From contig ONFC01000004.1 in the NCBI GenBank assembly GCA_900317035.1, forward strand, positions 1 to 36,443: a DNA stretch of 36,443 nucleotides. Reading direction: 5' to 3'. Made by a program: the position numbers and the translations under genes. The notes under the pieces were generated by a model. That model was given only the letters and a program-made list of their open reading frames with translations. It was not told where the DNA came from and made no database searches. Shown one piece after another: positions 11,996 through 36,056 of this stretch. The DNA comes from an uncultured Eubacteriales bacterium (GTDB lineage: Bacteria > Bacillota > Clostridia > Saccharofermentanales > Saccharofermentanaceae). The stretch's first letter is position 1. The number at the start of each line of letters is the position of its first letter.

Positions 11996-12826
11996 ATGGA
12001 AAGCTTGTTGAGGGAATTGACGATCAGAAAAAGGCAACTGGACGAAGTAATCTCTTCGACGGAGGAGATCCTTAGACAGGCTCCGGCCGGCAGAGTGCGA
12101 GTCGAGCGGAGAAATGGATCTACCCGATATTTTCAGGTGCTCGAGGCTTATTCGCATGGTAAGTACATCCATAAGGAGAACAGGAATCTGGCAGTAAAAC
12201 TGGCGGAGAAAGATTACTTGTCGCACATTCTTGAATTTGCAAAGAAAGAGAGAGCGCTGCTTGAAAAATATCTCGGGTTTATGAAGACCAGATCTGCGGA
12301 TCACTTGTATCGGACTCTAAGTGAAGGTCGGAAGATGTTGGTGTCGCCGGTGCTTCTCGATGGCGGGACGTATGCCGATATGTGGTTAGCAAAGACGTAT
12401 GCGGGAAATCCGCAGTACCCTGAGAGATTGACTTTTCGGACCAGACGCGGTGAACTGGTACGATCTAAGACGGAAGTGTTTATCGCGAATGTGTATTTTG
12501 AACTGGGGATCCCATACAAATATGAGTGTCCTGTCGTACTTCGCAACGGGAAAACGCGTTACCCGGATTTCACCTTGCTGGATATTGCGCATCACAGAGT
12601 GGTCTATCACGAACATCTCGGTATGCTCGAAGATCCGGATTATCGAAAGGCAGCACTGATCAAACTTCAGGAATACGGAGAAAACGGAATATTCACAGGG
12701 AAGAATCTCATTCTTACGTCGGAGACATCATATGCACCATTTGATCCTGAACGATTCCGGAACAATGTTTGGGATGCTTTTCAGGTGGAATTTCTCAGGA
12801 AGGTCATAAAAGGTGGCGAAAGTTAA
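11996..12826 (+). CDS. PD-(D/E)XK-nuclease-like protein next to hairpin array 1
   Basis: A 276-residue soluble protein. The start at 11996 is set by a strong AGGAGG (11985-11990). The N-terminal 95 residues look coiled-coil or helical (LRELTIRKRQLDEVISSTEEIL...). The C-terminal part carries a pattern like the PD-(D/E)XK nuclease core: SKTE (E160), RYPDF (PD at 190-191), then VVYHEHLG (E206), and a Y-x-K-A-x-I-K-L-x-x-Y-x-x-N-G-I helix. The usual lysine two residues after the glutamate is Leu208, so activity is uncertain or the lysine has migrated. I recall similar W/H-EHLG proteins of unknown function in Clostridia. The last codons (GGES-stop) are formed by the first repeat of the array at 12811. 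Confidence 0.75.
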   Translation: MESLLRELTIRKRQLDEVISSTEEILRQAPAGRVRVERRNGSTRYFQVLEAYSHGKYIHKENRNLAVKLAEKDYLSHILEFAKKERALLEKYLGFMKTRSADHLYRTLSEGRKMLVSPVLLDGGTYADMWLAKTYAGNPQYPERLTFRTRRGELVRSKTEVFIANVYFELGIPYKYECPVVLRNGKTRYPDFTLLDIAHHRVVYHEHLGMLEDPDYRKAALIKLQEYGENGIFTGKNLILTSETSYAPFDPERFRNNVWDAFQVEFLRKVIKGGES

Positions 12827-13110
12827 GATTTGCTTGGATTGACCACCATGATGAAGGGAAGGGGAGGTGGCGAAATCTGATTGATCCGTAATCAGCCACC
12901 TTGAAAAGCACTATCAGTGGTGGCGAGAGAAGATAGGTGATGAGATTCGCCACCTTAAATAACGAAATGGAGGTGGTGAATGTGACGTATTTAACTATTC
13001 ACCACACGAAAAGAATGATCGAAGGTGGCGAAACAAGGGAACCCGCAATCTTAGCCACCAAAATCCTGCTTCCCAAGGTGGCAAAACTTGGCATCGTATA
13101 TTATTCGCCA
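12811..13110. repeat. Hairpin array 1: six alternating-orientation repeats, 53-bp period
   Basis: Six left arms, consensus AGGTGGCGAA, have GGTGG starting at 12812, 12866, 12919, 12972, 13024 and 13077 (steps 54, 53, 53, 52, 53). Each is followed 30-31 bases later by an inverted arm, consensus TCGCCACC, with CCA starting at 12843, 12896, 12950, 13002, 13055 and 13108 (steps 53, 54, 52, 53, 53). Arm pairs within units 3 and 4 are perfect over 8 and 9 bp. Unit 4 shows paired changes (GGTGGTGAAT with ATTCACCAC), so the inverted symmetry is kept when the sequence drifts. Sequence between arms, about 15-20 bases inside and about 17 between units, is not repeated. The array runs from the last codons of the PD-(D/E)XK-like gene to the TetR promoter. 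The 98-codon reading frame across it is not credible. Confidence 0.9.
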
Positions 13111-13131
13111 TTCAAGTTTGTACGGATGGGG

Positions 13132-13171: not shown

Positions 13172-13768
13172 ATGACGCTTATGCCGAGTTTTATGAAAGA
13201 TGCCATCAAGAAGACGTTTGTGGAACTTCTTGAGGAGCTTCCGATGTCCAGTATCACGGTCAAAATGATCGTCGAAAAGTGCGGGATCAACAGAAATTCT
13301 TTCTATTACTACTATCAGGATCTGCCGTCCCTGGTCGAGGAGATGGTAAAGGATGAGGCAGATACGATCATAGAAAAGTACGATACGATCGATTCGATCG
13401 AGACGGCACTCCGGGCCGCCATTTCCTTCTGCGAGCAGAATCGCCGGGCGATCCTTCATATCTATAATTCCGTCAGCCGCGATGTCTTTGAGCAGTATCT
13501 TTGGAAGGTCTGTGACTACGTTGTTACTACCTATGCAAAAACACTTTTCCACGATGTGGTGATCGCTCCGTCCGATGCGGAAATCATCCTCCGTTTCTAC
13601 CGCTGTGAATGCTTCGGACTTGCGATCGAGTGGCTCAATCAGAAGATGGAGTCAAATGTGGAAGCACATATTATCCGTTTCTGCCAGCTCTATAAAGGCA
13701 TGGCGGAGGAGATGATCCTCCGGGCGACCGAGAAAAATGCATCCGATTTAATAGCCGAAACTCCGTAA
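13172..13768 (+). CDS. TetR-family transcriptional regulator
   Basis: A 198-residue regulator. The N-terminal helix-turn-helix is clear (about residues 8-55: IKKTFVELLEELPMSSITVKMIVEKCGINRNSFYYYYQDLPSLV), followed by an all-helical ligand-binding domain without a recognisable ligand signature. Two starts are possible: 13172, with AAGGAG only two bases upstream, or 13181, at better spacing. TetR regulators commonly sit beside MMPL and LxxG-type efflux genes in Firmicutes, and such an operon lies at 17607-22761. I infer that this gene regulates it and that the lipoprotein cassette 13921-17458 was inserted between them. Module C directly downstream provides its terminator. Confidence 0.9.
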   Translation: MTLMPSFMKDAIKKTFVELLEELPMSSITVKMIVEKCGINRNSFYYYYQDLPSLVEEMVKDEADTIIEKYDTIDSIETALRAAISFCEQNRRAILHIYNSVSRDVFEQYLWKVCDYVVTTYAKTLFHDVVIAPSDAEIILRFYRCECFGLAIEWLNQKMESNVEAHIIRFCQLYKGMAEEMILRATEKNASDLIAETP

Positions 13769-32690: not shown

Positions 32691-33248
32691 GTGCGTGACA
32701 GTGAGATTGTGGATCTCTTTTTGAGACGGGATGAAGAAGCGCTTCGTGTCGTGTCGGATCAGTACGGCGCGAGACTGAATCATATTTCGTTCCGTATCAC
32801 ACAGGATGAACAGACCGCGGAAGAATGTGTGAATGATACGTATCTGGAAGCCTGGAACCGTATTCCGCCGAGTGAGCCGAGAGAGTATCTTCTGGCTTTT
32901 CTCTCGAAGATCATACGGGCAAAATCACTGAACCGCTGCATATACGAACATCGGTGCAAGCGGCATGCGTATGTCGAGGAACTATCTTCCGAACTGGAAC
33001 AGTGTATTCCTTCCAAGATCAGCGTCGAAGAAGAGATAGAAGGAAAAGCTTTTGCGGAGGTAGTCAGCCGGTTTCTTCTGGCGCAGCCGGATGAAAAAAG
33101 AAGAGTGTTTGTCAGACGATATTTCTATATGGAAAACACATCGGTTATTGCGGCTGCGTATGGATTTAGTGATAACAAAGTCCGGACGATGCTTTCCCGG
33201 ATGCGAAAGGAACTGAAAAGTTTTCTGGAAAAGGAGGATTTCCTATGA
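32691..33248 (+). CDS. ECF-type sigma-70 family sigma factor
   Basis: A 185-residue sigma factor with region 2 (FLRRDEEALRVVSDQYGARL..., with DEQTAEECVNDTYLEAWNRIPP as the region 2.2-2.4 core) and region 4 (FVRRYFYMENTSVIAAAYGFSDNKVRTMLSRMRKELKSFL). It begins with GTG, with GTGAGG ten bases upstream. The stop overlaps the ATG of the serpin (ATGA at 33245-33248), the arrangement usual for a sigma factor and its anti-sigma factor. It is probably held inactive by the N terminus of that membrane protein. Confidence 0.93.
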   Translation: MRDSEIVDLFLRRDEEALRVVSDQYGARLNHISFRITQDEQTAEECVNDTYLEAWNRIPPSEPREYLLAFLSKIIRAKSLNRCIYEHRCKRHAYVEELSSELEQCIPSKISVEEEIEGKAFAEVVSRFLLAQPDEKRRVFVRRYFYMENTSVIAAAYGFSDNKVRTMLSRMRKELKSFLEKEDFL

Positions 33249-34708
33249 ACGGAAAAGATATGTTGGAAATGATGTCTGAACTAGACGAAAAAGTTGTGGC
33301 AGATGCTGCCGTCACACCGATAAGAAAGACACGGAAAAAGTGGAAGATCGTTCTTGGCGCCGTGGCTGCCGCCCTTATAGTGGGTATTCTGGGATATACG
33401 ATTTACCCTTACGTGAGGGGAAAGATTACCGGGAAATATAAGCAGGATTTGAAATCCGGGACGCTGATGGCTTCGCCCAGGTATCCGGAGATGCCGGAGA
33501 ATCCGGAACTTACGAGGGGGTATGATAAGGAAAAAAGTCAGGAGTACCTTCAGGCAGTGATGGCTTTGCGTAAGCAGCCGGAGGGATATCAGGACGGCTA
33601 CGATGCGTATTTGAAAGATGTGCTGGGTGTTATCTTTTCGGATACAGGGAATGGGAATAAGGCGTTCTCGCCCCTCTGCCTGTATATGGCACTGGGAATG
33701 ACTGCAGAAATCACGGACGGAACAACACAGCAGCAGATCCTGGATGTTTTGCATCAGCCGGATATTGCAACGCTTCGTGAGCGTGCCAAGTCGATCTGGC
33801 TTGCTAATTATATGGACGATGGATTGTCTAAACTGGTACTGGCTAATTCACTTTGGATGAATACTGGACGGAATTATGAACAGTCCGTACTGGATACATT
33901 GGCGAACAACTATTTCGCTTCTTCGTATTCCGGCGATCCATCATCGGAGAAATATAGTCAGAAACTCCGCGAATGGATCAACGAGCAGACGGATGGGCTT
34001 CTTGAAAACATGCTCTCCGATCTGAAGCTGGATCCGGATCTGATGATAGCTCTTGTTTCTACCGTGAATTACTGTGGGAAATGGGCGGATCCTTTTCTAA
34101 AGAGCGAGACGAAGGATGGAACATTCCATGCCCCTTTAGGTGATGTGAACTGCAAGTATATGTGTACGGAAACGGGGCATGAGAATTTCTATGGAGATCA
34201 TTTTGAATGTGTATCCTTGCCGATTATTAACAATGGCAGCGTACGGTTCATTCTCCCGGAAGAAGGAATGACACCGGAAGAACTGCTGATGGATGAAGAA
34301 CTCCTTCAGTTTTTGAACACAGAGTCCTATAAATGGGATAAAACAATAGAGGCCGCTAGTGTTCATATGGAAGTGCCGAAGTTCGATATCTCTTCTGACA
34401 TAAAACTGAATGATTACCTGAAGGCTTTGGGAATAGAGGATCTATTTGAAGCGGGAGACGCCGATTTCAGTCCGCTGGTGGGTAAGAGTGATGAAAACTT
34501 CTACGTGAATTCAATCGAACAGAACACACGTATCATGATCGATGAAGAAGGATGTAAAGCGGTTTCTGCTACAATCCTTTTGGCCGGAGCCGGACAAACC
34601 AAAGAACATTTCGAATTCATCCTGGATCGGCCGTTCGTATTTGAAATCGTAAGTGATACGGGACTGCCTCTTTTCGTTGGCGTCGTGAATGATCCGACCA
34701 TGTCCTGA
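33245..34708 (+). CDS. Membrane-anchored serpin, putative anti-sigma factor
   Basis: A 487-residue type II membrane protein: a cytoplasmic N terminus of about 33 residues (MNGKDMLEMMSELDEKVV..., then basic RKTRKKWK), one transmembrane helix (about 34-56), a linker and an extracytoplasmic serpin (about 110-487). The N terminus resembles the short cytoplasmic heads of clostridial proteins encoded after ECF sigma factors, from memory of such families. Serpin features are FSPLCLYMALGMTAEITDG, NYCGKWADPF and the C-terminal DRPFVFEIVSD. The reactive-loop hinge is EEGCKAVSATILLAGAGQ: P15 Gly436, P14 Cys437, P12-P9 A-V-S-A, mostly small but less canonical than in the serpin at 5574. The ATGA overlap with the sigma gene implies stoichiometric expression. 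Confidence 0.92.
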   Translation: MNGKDMLEMMSELDEKVVADAAVTPIRKTRKKWKIVLGAVAAALIVGILGYTIYPYVRGKITGKYKQDLKSGTLMASPRYPEMPENPELTRGYDKEKSQEYLQAVMALRKQPEGYQDGYDAYLKDVLGVIFSDTGNGNKAFSPLCLYMALGMTAEITDGTTQQQILDVLHQPDIATLRERAKSIWLANYMDDGLSKLVLANSLWMNTGRNYEQSVLDTLANNYFASSYSGDPSSEKYSQKLREWINEQTDGLLENMLSDLKLDPDLMIALVSTVNYCGKWADPFLKSETKDGTFHAPLGDVNCKYMCTETGHENFYGDHFECVSLPIINNGSVRFILPEEGMTPEELLMDEELLQFLNTESYKWDKTIEAASVHMEVPKFDISSDIKLNDYLKALGIEDLFEAGDADFSPLVGKSDENFYVNSIEQNTRIMIDEEGCKAVSATILLAGAGQTKEHFEFILDRPFVFEIVSDTGLPLFVGVVNDPTMS

Positions 34709-34727
34709 TGCGTCTTGAGCAGAAATA

Positions 34728-35035
34728 ATCCGTAAGGTGAAATGTGAGACTGCAGATATAGTTCCATTTTTTGTAATTTTATCCGTAAGAGTAGAGATGC
34801 TTTTACGGATAAAATTGCGTTTTCTGCGATATTATCCGTATGGGGAGATGTGATTTTGCGGATAAAATTGCATTTCTTGCAAAATTATACGTAAAGACTT
34901 CTTTGAGTTTGCGGATAGAAATGTGTTTTTTGTGATTTTATCCGTAAAAGGGAGTGTGAATATACGGATAAAAATCGCTGTTAGGAAATTTTATGGGTAA
35001 ATGCCGGAAAAGCACTGCTCCGTTATTTCACCCAT
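34728..35035. repeat. Hairpin array 2: alternating-orientation repeats, exact 53-bp period
   Basis: Left arms (consensus ATTTTATCCGTAA) have ATCCGT or a variant starting at 34728, 34781, 34834, 34887 (ATACGT), 34940 and, degenerate, 34993 (ATGGGT): five steps of exactly 53. Inverted arms (consensus TTACGGATAAAAT) have CGGATA or a variant starting at 34753 (CAGATA), 34806, 34859, 34912 and 34965: four steps of exactly 53. The second unit is a perfect 14-bp inverted repeat (34775-34788 with 34803-34816). Sequence between arms is about 14 bases and not repeated. The sixth unit has ATGGGT (34993) and ACCCAT (35030-35035) as a changed pair. The array begins 20 bases after the serpin stop, next to CTTGAGCAGAAAT, the same 13-mer as in hairpin module A. 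Confidence 0.92.
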
Positions 35036-35201: not shown

Positions 35202-36056
35202 ATGATTTCAGTTACAGGGATTTCAAAGAGCTTCGGTGATAAAAAAGTGCTCGATGGTATTTCGATGACGATCGAGGACGGGGAGATCTTCGGACTTCTC
35301 GGACCGTCCGGTGCGGGTAAGACAACATTGATCAGAGTGCTGACCGGACAGCTTAAGTTTGAAGAAGGCGCAGCGATGATCAATGGCAAAGATGTCAGAA
35401 AGCTCACCGGCGCAGATAAGAAACAGTTTGGTGTCATGATGGATGACTTCGGCCTGTATGAGAGACTGACCTGCTATCAGAACCTTCGCGTTTTCGCGGA
35501 TATCTACGGTGTCGGTGACGCGGAGATCGCGACAGTTCTCAAAGAAGTGGAGCTGGAAGATGCCGAGAAAAAAGAAGTGAAGAAATTAAGTAAAGGCATG
35601 AAGGAGCGCCTCCGCCTGGCAAGAGCACTTCTGGCACATCCCAAGGTCCTTTTCCTGGATGAGCCGACAAGCGGGCTTGATCCGCAGACCAGCAGCGAGA
35701 TACACGAGATCATAAGAAAGAGAAAAGACGCCGGAACGATCATTTTCCTGACGACGCATAACATGACGGAAGCGGAGAAACTCTGCGATCACCTGGTCCT
35801 TCTCAATGAAGGAAAAATAGTAGAAAGAGGCGCGCCAAAAGAACTGTGCCTCCGCTATGATCATCAGAAAAAGATCGAGCTTGTAACCACGAAAGGTGAG
35901 ACAGTCTCGCTGGAAATGAATAGAGAAAATGCAGAAGAAACGAGCGCACAGATCGCGGAATTCCTGAAGGAAGGAAAACTCAGCACGATCCACTCGAAGG
36001 AACCGAATCTGGAGACCGTGTTCATGGAACTCACGGGCAGAAAACTGGAGGTGTAA
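35202..36056 (+). CDS. ABC transporter ATP-binding protein (ABC-2/drug-export type)
   Basis: A 284-residue ATPase with Walker A GPSGAGKTT, Q-loop MMDDFGLYERLTCYQNL (the Gln is replaced, as in several export ATPases), signature LSKGMKERL (a variant of LSGGQ common in drug and bacteriocin export ATPases), Walker B VLFLDEPTSGLDP and H-loop FLTTHNM. The C-terminal ~70 residues are the usual export-type extension. The start at 35202 has AGGAGG upstream. It is followed after 4 bases by an ABC-2-type permease. The substrate is unknown. Confidence 0.95.
   Translation: MISVTGISKSFGDKKVLDGISMTIEDGEIFGLLGPSGAGKTTLIRVLTGQLKFEEGAAMINGKDVRKLTGADKKQFGVMMDDFGLYERLTCYQNLRVFADIYGVGDAEIATVLKEVELEDAEKKEVKKLSKGMKERLRLARALLAHPKVLFLDEPTSGLDPQTSSEIHEIIRKRKDAGTIIFLTTHNMTEAEKLCDHLVLLNEGKIVERGAPKELCLRYDHQKKIELVTTKGETVSLEMNRENAEETSAQIAEFLKEGKLSTIHSKEPNLETVFMELTGRKLEV

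Follow-up and report, generated by a model that had tools for sequence, protein, structure and literature searches.

The window, the whole stretch of 36,443 nucleotides that was analysed here from an uncultured Eubacteriales bacterium, contains two arrays of short arms in alternating orientation. The array under study (array 2) is the second of the two, as the earlier note had put it; it is non-coding and lies between a serpin gene and a gene for an ABC-transporter ATPase (Table 1). Both of these neighbours were borne out by Pfam, as was the claim that no nuclease gene adjoins the array. Between the serpin stop codon and the first arm of array 2 there are 16 bp, and about 200 bp separate the end of the array from the ATPase gene. 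The functions of the genes checked beside the arrays are unrelated, and neither a regulator nor a nuclease recurs among them.

Table 1. Arrays and neighbouring genes in the window (positions in the whole stretch)
Feature	Position	Strand	Remarks
Array 2	34722..35000	.	six 53-bp units; from repeat finding, tandem repeats, autocorrelation, shuffles and arm positions
Sixth unit of array 2, degenerate	34990..35035	.	ATGGGT / ACCCAT; arm separation 37 bp versus the usual 25
Array 1	12811..13113	.	six units; arms AGGTGGCGAA / TTCGCCACCT; alternation 26-27 bp as in array 2
Serpin gene	33245..34708	+	upstream of array 2; Pfam PF00079, E=3.2e-61
ABC-transporter ATPase gene	35202..36056	+	downstream of array 2; Pfam PF00005, E=1.2e-33
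TetR-type regulator gene	13172..13768	+	downstream of array 1; Pfam PF14278, E=1.9e-13

Searching array 2 with the 11-mer TTTATCCGTAA and allowing ≤2 mismatches, we located left arms starting at 34725, 34778, 34831, 34884, 34937 and 34990, that is, with five steps of exactly 53 bp each. The right arms, TTACGGATAAA (the reverse complement), lie at 34750, 34803, 34856, 34909 and 34962, again with four steps of exactly 53 bp; the one at 34750 is degenerate, with 4 mismatches. The two arms alternate in orientation about 26 and 27 bp apart and are separated by unconserved sequence, all of which agrees with the earlier note apart from the length of the arms, which had been given as 13-14 bp and is about 10-12 bp in its conserved part. 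An autocorrelation peak at lag 53, which had been proposed as a test, is present: identity at this lag over 34722-35035 is 0.609, compared with 0.277 ± 0.027 in dinucleotide shuffles of the same region and a top value of 0.418 over any of 140 lags in 2000 such shuffles. It is also the strongest local autocorrelation in the whole window at lags 15-199 (0.69 over 150 bp), the best unrelated value (0.51) coming from a coding repeat. The matched changes that had been reported for the sixth unit are present in the sequence but cannot be taken as a sign of maintained pairing, given the wide separation of these arms (Table 1) and a non-complementary pair, ATCGGT / ACTCAT, at the same place in a related genome, G002. 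Array 1 advances in unit steps of 54, 53, 53, 52 and 53 bp, with a best lag of 53; its arms are unrelated to those of array 2, and yet the geometry is shared.

We surveyed 2.0 Mb of sampled stretches, of which 0.50 Mb came from this genome and the rest from other members of the genus, further genera of the same family and a single Lachnospiraceae genome. The detector accepted alternating arms at any period from 30 to 100, and block-shuffled sequence served as the control. The survey returned 34 clusters against 0 in the control; 19 of them have periods of 50-54, seven of 81-84 and a few of 61-62, and the 34 include a few that are coding repeats or noise from a single hit. This genome contributed seven arrays of the 53 class in its 0.50 Mb, which by extrapolation gives about 35 in the genome, and further arms found here besides the two of the window are TTGATCCTAT, TTCTATCGGTA and TTATGTCTGA. 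Outside the genus, where the survey is thin, the Lachnospiraceae record JAKSSA010000010 contains a nine-unit array with TTTATCCGTA arms and a period of 53-54, and a second array with other arms occurs in the same genome. Dispersed elements of this kind form a class found across the genus, with a single geometry and many families of arms, and array 2 is one of them. The period classes of 61-62 and 81-84 lie near whole helical turns with P about 0.009, a value obtained from few independent classes by a test chosen post hoc.

Several further arrays were seen alongside. In the period-82 class, two direct CTCACCTAA arms about 12 bp apart are followed by inverted copies (L095 10941-11250, L100 1200-1440, L117 14282-14500), and these arms are common to this genome and G008. 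Period-84 arrays with arms ATTACCGCCAAA / TTTGGCGGTAAT occupy several loci in another genus of the family (G025 and G029; L141 8118-8415, L144 628-838 and 14460-14790). In G002 and G001 (L170 9685-9880, L185 8700-8895), a tRNA-like gene and a terminator are followed directly by arrays with arms TTTAGTCGTA / TACGACTAAA.

Searches of the whole genome for single arm families allowed the distance between arms (the loop) to be measured in many units at once. With loops of 12-22 allowed, GATCCTA..TAGGATC yields 28 units at six loci, with one loop length in 25 of the 28 and one shorter in 3, while the reversed-pattern control yields 0 units. With loops of 10-22 allowed, TATCGGT..ACCGATA yields eight units, likewise at six loci, and the loop is 18 in 8/8; it is 18 in almost all TATCGGT units of the related genomes G006, G002 and G008 as well, whereas outside the genus the loop lengths of this pattern are scattered, as by chance. 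The pattern TATCCGT..ACGGATA of array 2 also has a loop of 18 and differs from TATCGGT..ACCGATA by one arm base, and array 2 is therefore best seen as a variant of the TATCGGT family. Because such pattern searches pick conserved arms, arm conservation among the matches is partly ascertained; loop length is unaffected. Thus, unrelated arm families share one geometry, a single family can occupy at least six loci in a genome, and it is the spacing rather than the sequence between the arms that is the conserved trait, the intervening DNA being conserved in length only.

The same holds at the array 2 site in relatives. The earlier note had raised the possibility that the spacing varies freely among them, and this is not what was found: array 2 is kept with 53-bp steps in G006 (DFFH01000122, Mageeibacillus sp. 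UBA3781), G008 and G012 have the flanks seen here with exactly 159 bp (three units) missing from the array, and in G002 the array is one unit shorter by way of a hybrid of units 2 and 3. These losses indicate that copy number shifts by whole units, without drift of the spacing. Between orthologues, the arms are conserved only weakly above the loops, with changes at 2/118 arm and 7/159 loop positions against G006 and at 9/96 and 15/130, respectively, against G002. One of the orthologous intergenic sites is apparently without an array in G010 which, together with the three-unit loss in G008 and G012, marks the arrays as dispensable at single loci. The presence of orthologous arrays in separate assemblies argues against an assembly artefact, although the assemblies of the genus are mostly many-contig drafts. 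Unit-wise losses of this kind, along with the fresh amplification of some arrays (L066, L194), are what passive tandem duplication (VNTR slippage) of an accidental palindrome would produce with no binding protein at all. Slippage would, however, give any period, while unrelated sequences here repeatedly give 52-54, and the spacing has been kept after the intervening sequence diverged, which makes this explanation very improbable.

In contrast to the spacing, the arm families change between genomes. GATCCTA units number 28 in this genome (G000), 27 in G006, 28 in G008, three in G004 and one in G013, and they are missing from the remaining 18 genus members. For TGCCGTA, G009 has 67 units and G021 has 41, against 0 in both this genome and G006. 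Upstream of the same ABC gene that follows the TATCCGTA array here, G009 and G021 carry six units of another arm, TGCCGTAT / ATACGGCA, with a period of 52. Within the genus, one arm family hence takes the place of another from species to species, in one instance beside the same gene. Different families also use one intergenic site beside a desulfoferrodoxin gene, where a TGCCGTAT array lies in G021 (L128 16495-16790), a period-50 double-arm array in G019 (L175 8365-8570) and no array in G010 (L180 5771-5864).

Regular repeats with unlike sequence between them recall a CRISPR-like memory array, and we give this reading next to no weight. A CRISPR array needs direct repeats in the same orientation with acquired spacers, and was rejected here: the repeats alternate in orientation, the spacing is 14-18 bp, the would-be spacers are conserved at the same positions in different species, and no phage or plasmid match to them was found. 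Phage or plasmid origin was likewise rejected, array 2 having no match to phages or plasmids; the sole viral-contig match to the GATCCTA pattern is an unrelated short-period repeat.

We then considered whether the arrays act as RNA or as DNA. Transcribed tandem hairpins could serve in mRNA 3' protection, in attenuation or as small RNAs, and two observations point in this direction: the arrays fold better than shuffled sequence (z = -6.2 and -5.0), and about 7-8 of 17 arrays of the 53 class start ≤40 bp from a stop codon. Inverted repeats, however, fold as RNA by construction, and the pairing itself shows little sign of selection. Shared derived changes occur at 5/140 and 9/133 in neighbouring opposite arms, compared with 19/575 in non-neighbours, so that no clear covariation of partner arms was seen, and the pairing of real partner arms is no better than that of shuffled ones (P = 0.16 and 0.76). 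A candidate compensatory change in unit 4 of array 1 (GGTGGTGAA/TTCACCAC) was rejected, the pair being mismatched in G006. In L134, the two arms of every unit differ consistently at 3/14 positions, and no Rfam family scores above its cut-off on either array. The lack of co-variation argues against selected RNA hairpins, and a stretch between arms that is free in sequence and fixed in length is not needed by a hairpin loop but is needed by a protein array on the DNA helix. Altogether, we regard RNA hairpins as quite unlikely.

On the DNA helix, 26.5 bp corresponds to about 2.5 turns and 53 bp to about 5. The typical element consists of about six 53-bp units, or about twelve arms of 10-12 bp alternating every 26-27 bp, and has the properties of a protein-binding array, namely conserved sites, fixed spacing and free intervening sequence. 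We therefore give roughly an even chance (about 0.5) to the reading, drawn from the pattern of the sequences, that these are BIME-like DNA elements, dispersed over the genome, in which the arms serve a putative DNA-binding protein as helically phased sites. Each arm family would then be the half-site of a sequence-specific protein that loads cooperatively, and like arms on one face of the helix would give rise to a regular nucleoprotein array between genes, possibly a chromosome-organising, insulating or silencing scaffold. Binding of the putative protein would keep the arms and their spacing while the stretches between drift; the arrays would spread by copying as a whole and change in copy number by unit-wise recombination. 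Among the neighbour genes checked, no candidate for the arm-binding protein recurs beside the arrays. This counts against the reading, as do the small margin by which arms are better conserved than loops between orthologues and the dispensability of arrays at single loci.

Chief among the rival readings is that of a MITE- or REP-like mobile element, non-autonomous and serving no host function: a transposase or recombinase with its gene elsewhere would recognise the arms, and the six-unit element would spread and decay. In the TGCCGTA arrays of G009 and G021, loop identity between loci is 66% at the same unit index and 50% at different indices, with 0/2000 permutations as extreme. This shared unit order across many loci implies that the arrays are dispersed copies of one six-unit element, and mobility alone, with no role for the host, could account for the ordered loop similarity in G009. 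The homology between the copies in L128 and L129 is moreover confined to the array and ends at its limits, and the species-specific distribution of the families fits this alternative as well. On the other hand, even copies with unrelated loops keep their internal arms and spacing fixed, the arrays of this genome were found to have no mobilising gene beside them, and none of the loci compared offers a clean empty site with a target duplication, synteny being broken beside the arrays. RAYT is the known mobiliser of such repeats, yet no match to the Y1 (RAYT/IS200-type) transposase family PF01797 was found in this genome (assembly 94% complete), and the family is absent from 19/23 genus members, the other 4 having matches. 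We consider mobility without host function somewhat unlikely on balance; a binding array and mobility may both hold, as in BIMEs.

Two further observations touch on mobility. The similarity between L061 and L062 was examined as a possible element insertion, but is due to a segmental duplication that spans about 470 bp. In G014 (L194 118-500), a 53-bp array that has been freshly amplified, with arms GCGTGG / CCACGC, has an IS200-type (Y1) transposase gene about 1 kb away, which may be chance.

Several known systems resemble these arrays in part. Phased operator arrays of cooperative DNA-binding proteins have half-sites at a fixed distance with free sequence between them and a period near whole turns; they share the fixed half-site spacing with the present arrays, which lie at many loci beside unrelated genes and whose cognate protein is putative. 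In Neisseria, intergenic mosaic elements (NIMEs) carry dRS3 repeats, one palindromic 20-mer, with intervening RS units that vary in length. Like the arrays described here, NIMEs are intergenic inverted-repeat arrays with unlike sequence between the repeats, but in NIMEs the length varies and the arm is fixed, whereas here the length is fixed and the arms vary by family. BIMEs, which consist of regularly spaced REPs in alternating orientation, agree with the present arrays in this layout and in being intergenic and dispersed, and are known to bind proteins (PMC2817692). Their repeats, in contrast, are imperfect palindromes of one core in high copy and tied to a RAYT transposase, while the arms found here are short, non-palindromic and of many unrelated families. 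REPs can also form ordered tandem arrays of up to 12 REPs that are copied between places in one genome, and REPINs resemble the present arrays in being inverted pairs that are dispersed as units and in having families that differ between genomes (PMC3116915). They differ in that this genome has no RAYT, the unit of dispersal here is the six-unit array, and unrelated families keep the 53-bp period. Membership of the RAYT/REPIN system was rejected on the transposase, dispersed copies themselves being present in G009 and G021.

Sequence and keyword searches of the open-access literature found no published description of these arrays. Bacterial interspersed repeats are usually defined by their sequence; here one geometry spans unrelated sequences at several loci per genome, also in Lachnospiraceae, and the sequences turn over between close species. 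Should a protein indeed read the arrays, they would represent a new and abundant system for organising or insulating the chromosome, one that carries its own ruler and changes its specificity fast. It is tempting to speculate further that the phased arrays, at dozens of places between genes, are built by a common predicted protein scaffold whose DNA specificity changes rapidly, the geometry (2.5-turn alternation, six units) being conserved while the arms turn over between species together with the protein, like a fast co-evolving pair, which would make the arrays an undescribed class of chromosomal element; we hold this extension to be possible rather than probable.

Finally, some array loops contain copies of AGTGCTTTTC (reverse complement GAAAAGCACT), the commonest 10-mer in the 0.50 Mb of this genome, with 90 copies compared with 2.5 expected. 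In the window it occurs at 120, 3378, 4330, 5423, 5885, 12903, 23167, 26358, 27668, 29566, 29638 and 35007, and it may be a Chi-like, uptake-like or hairpin motif.
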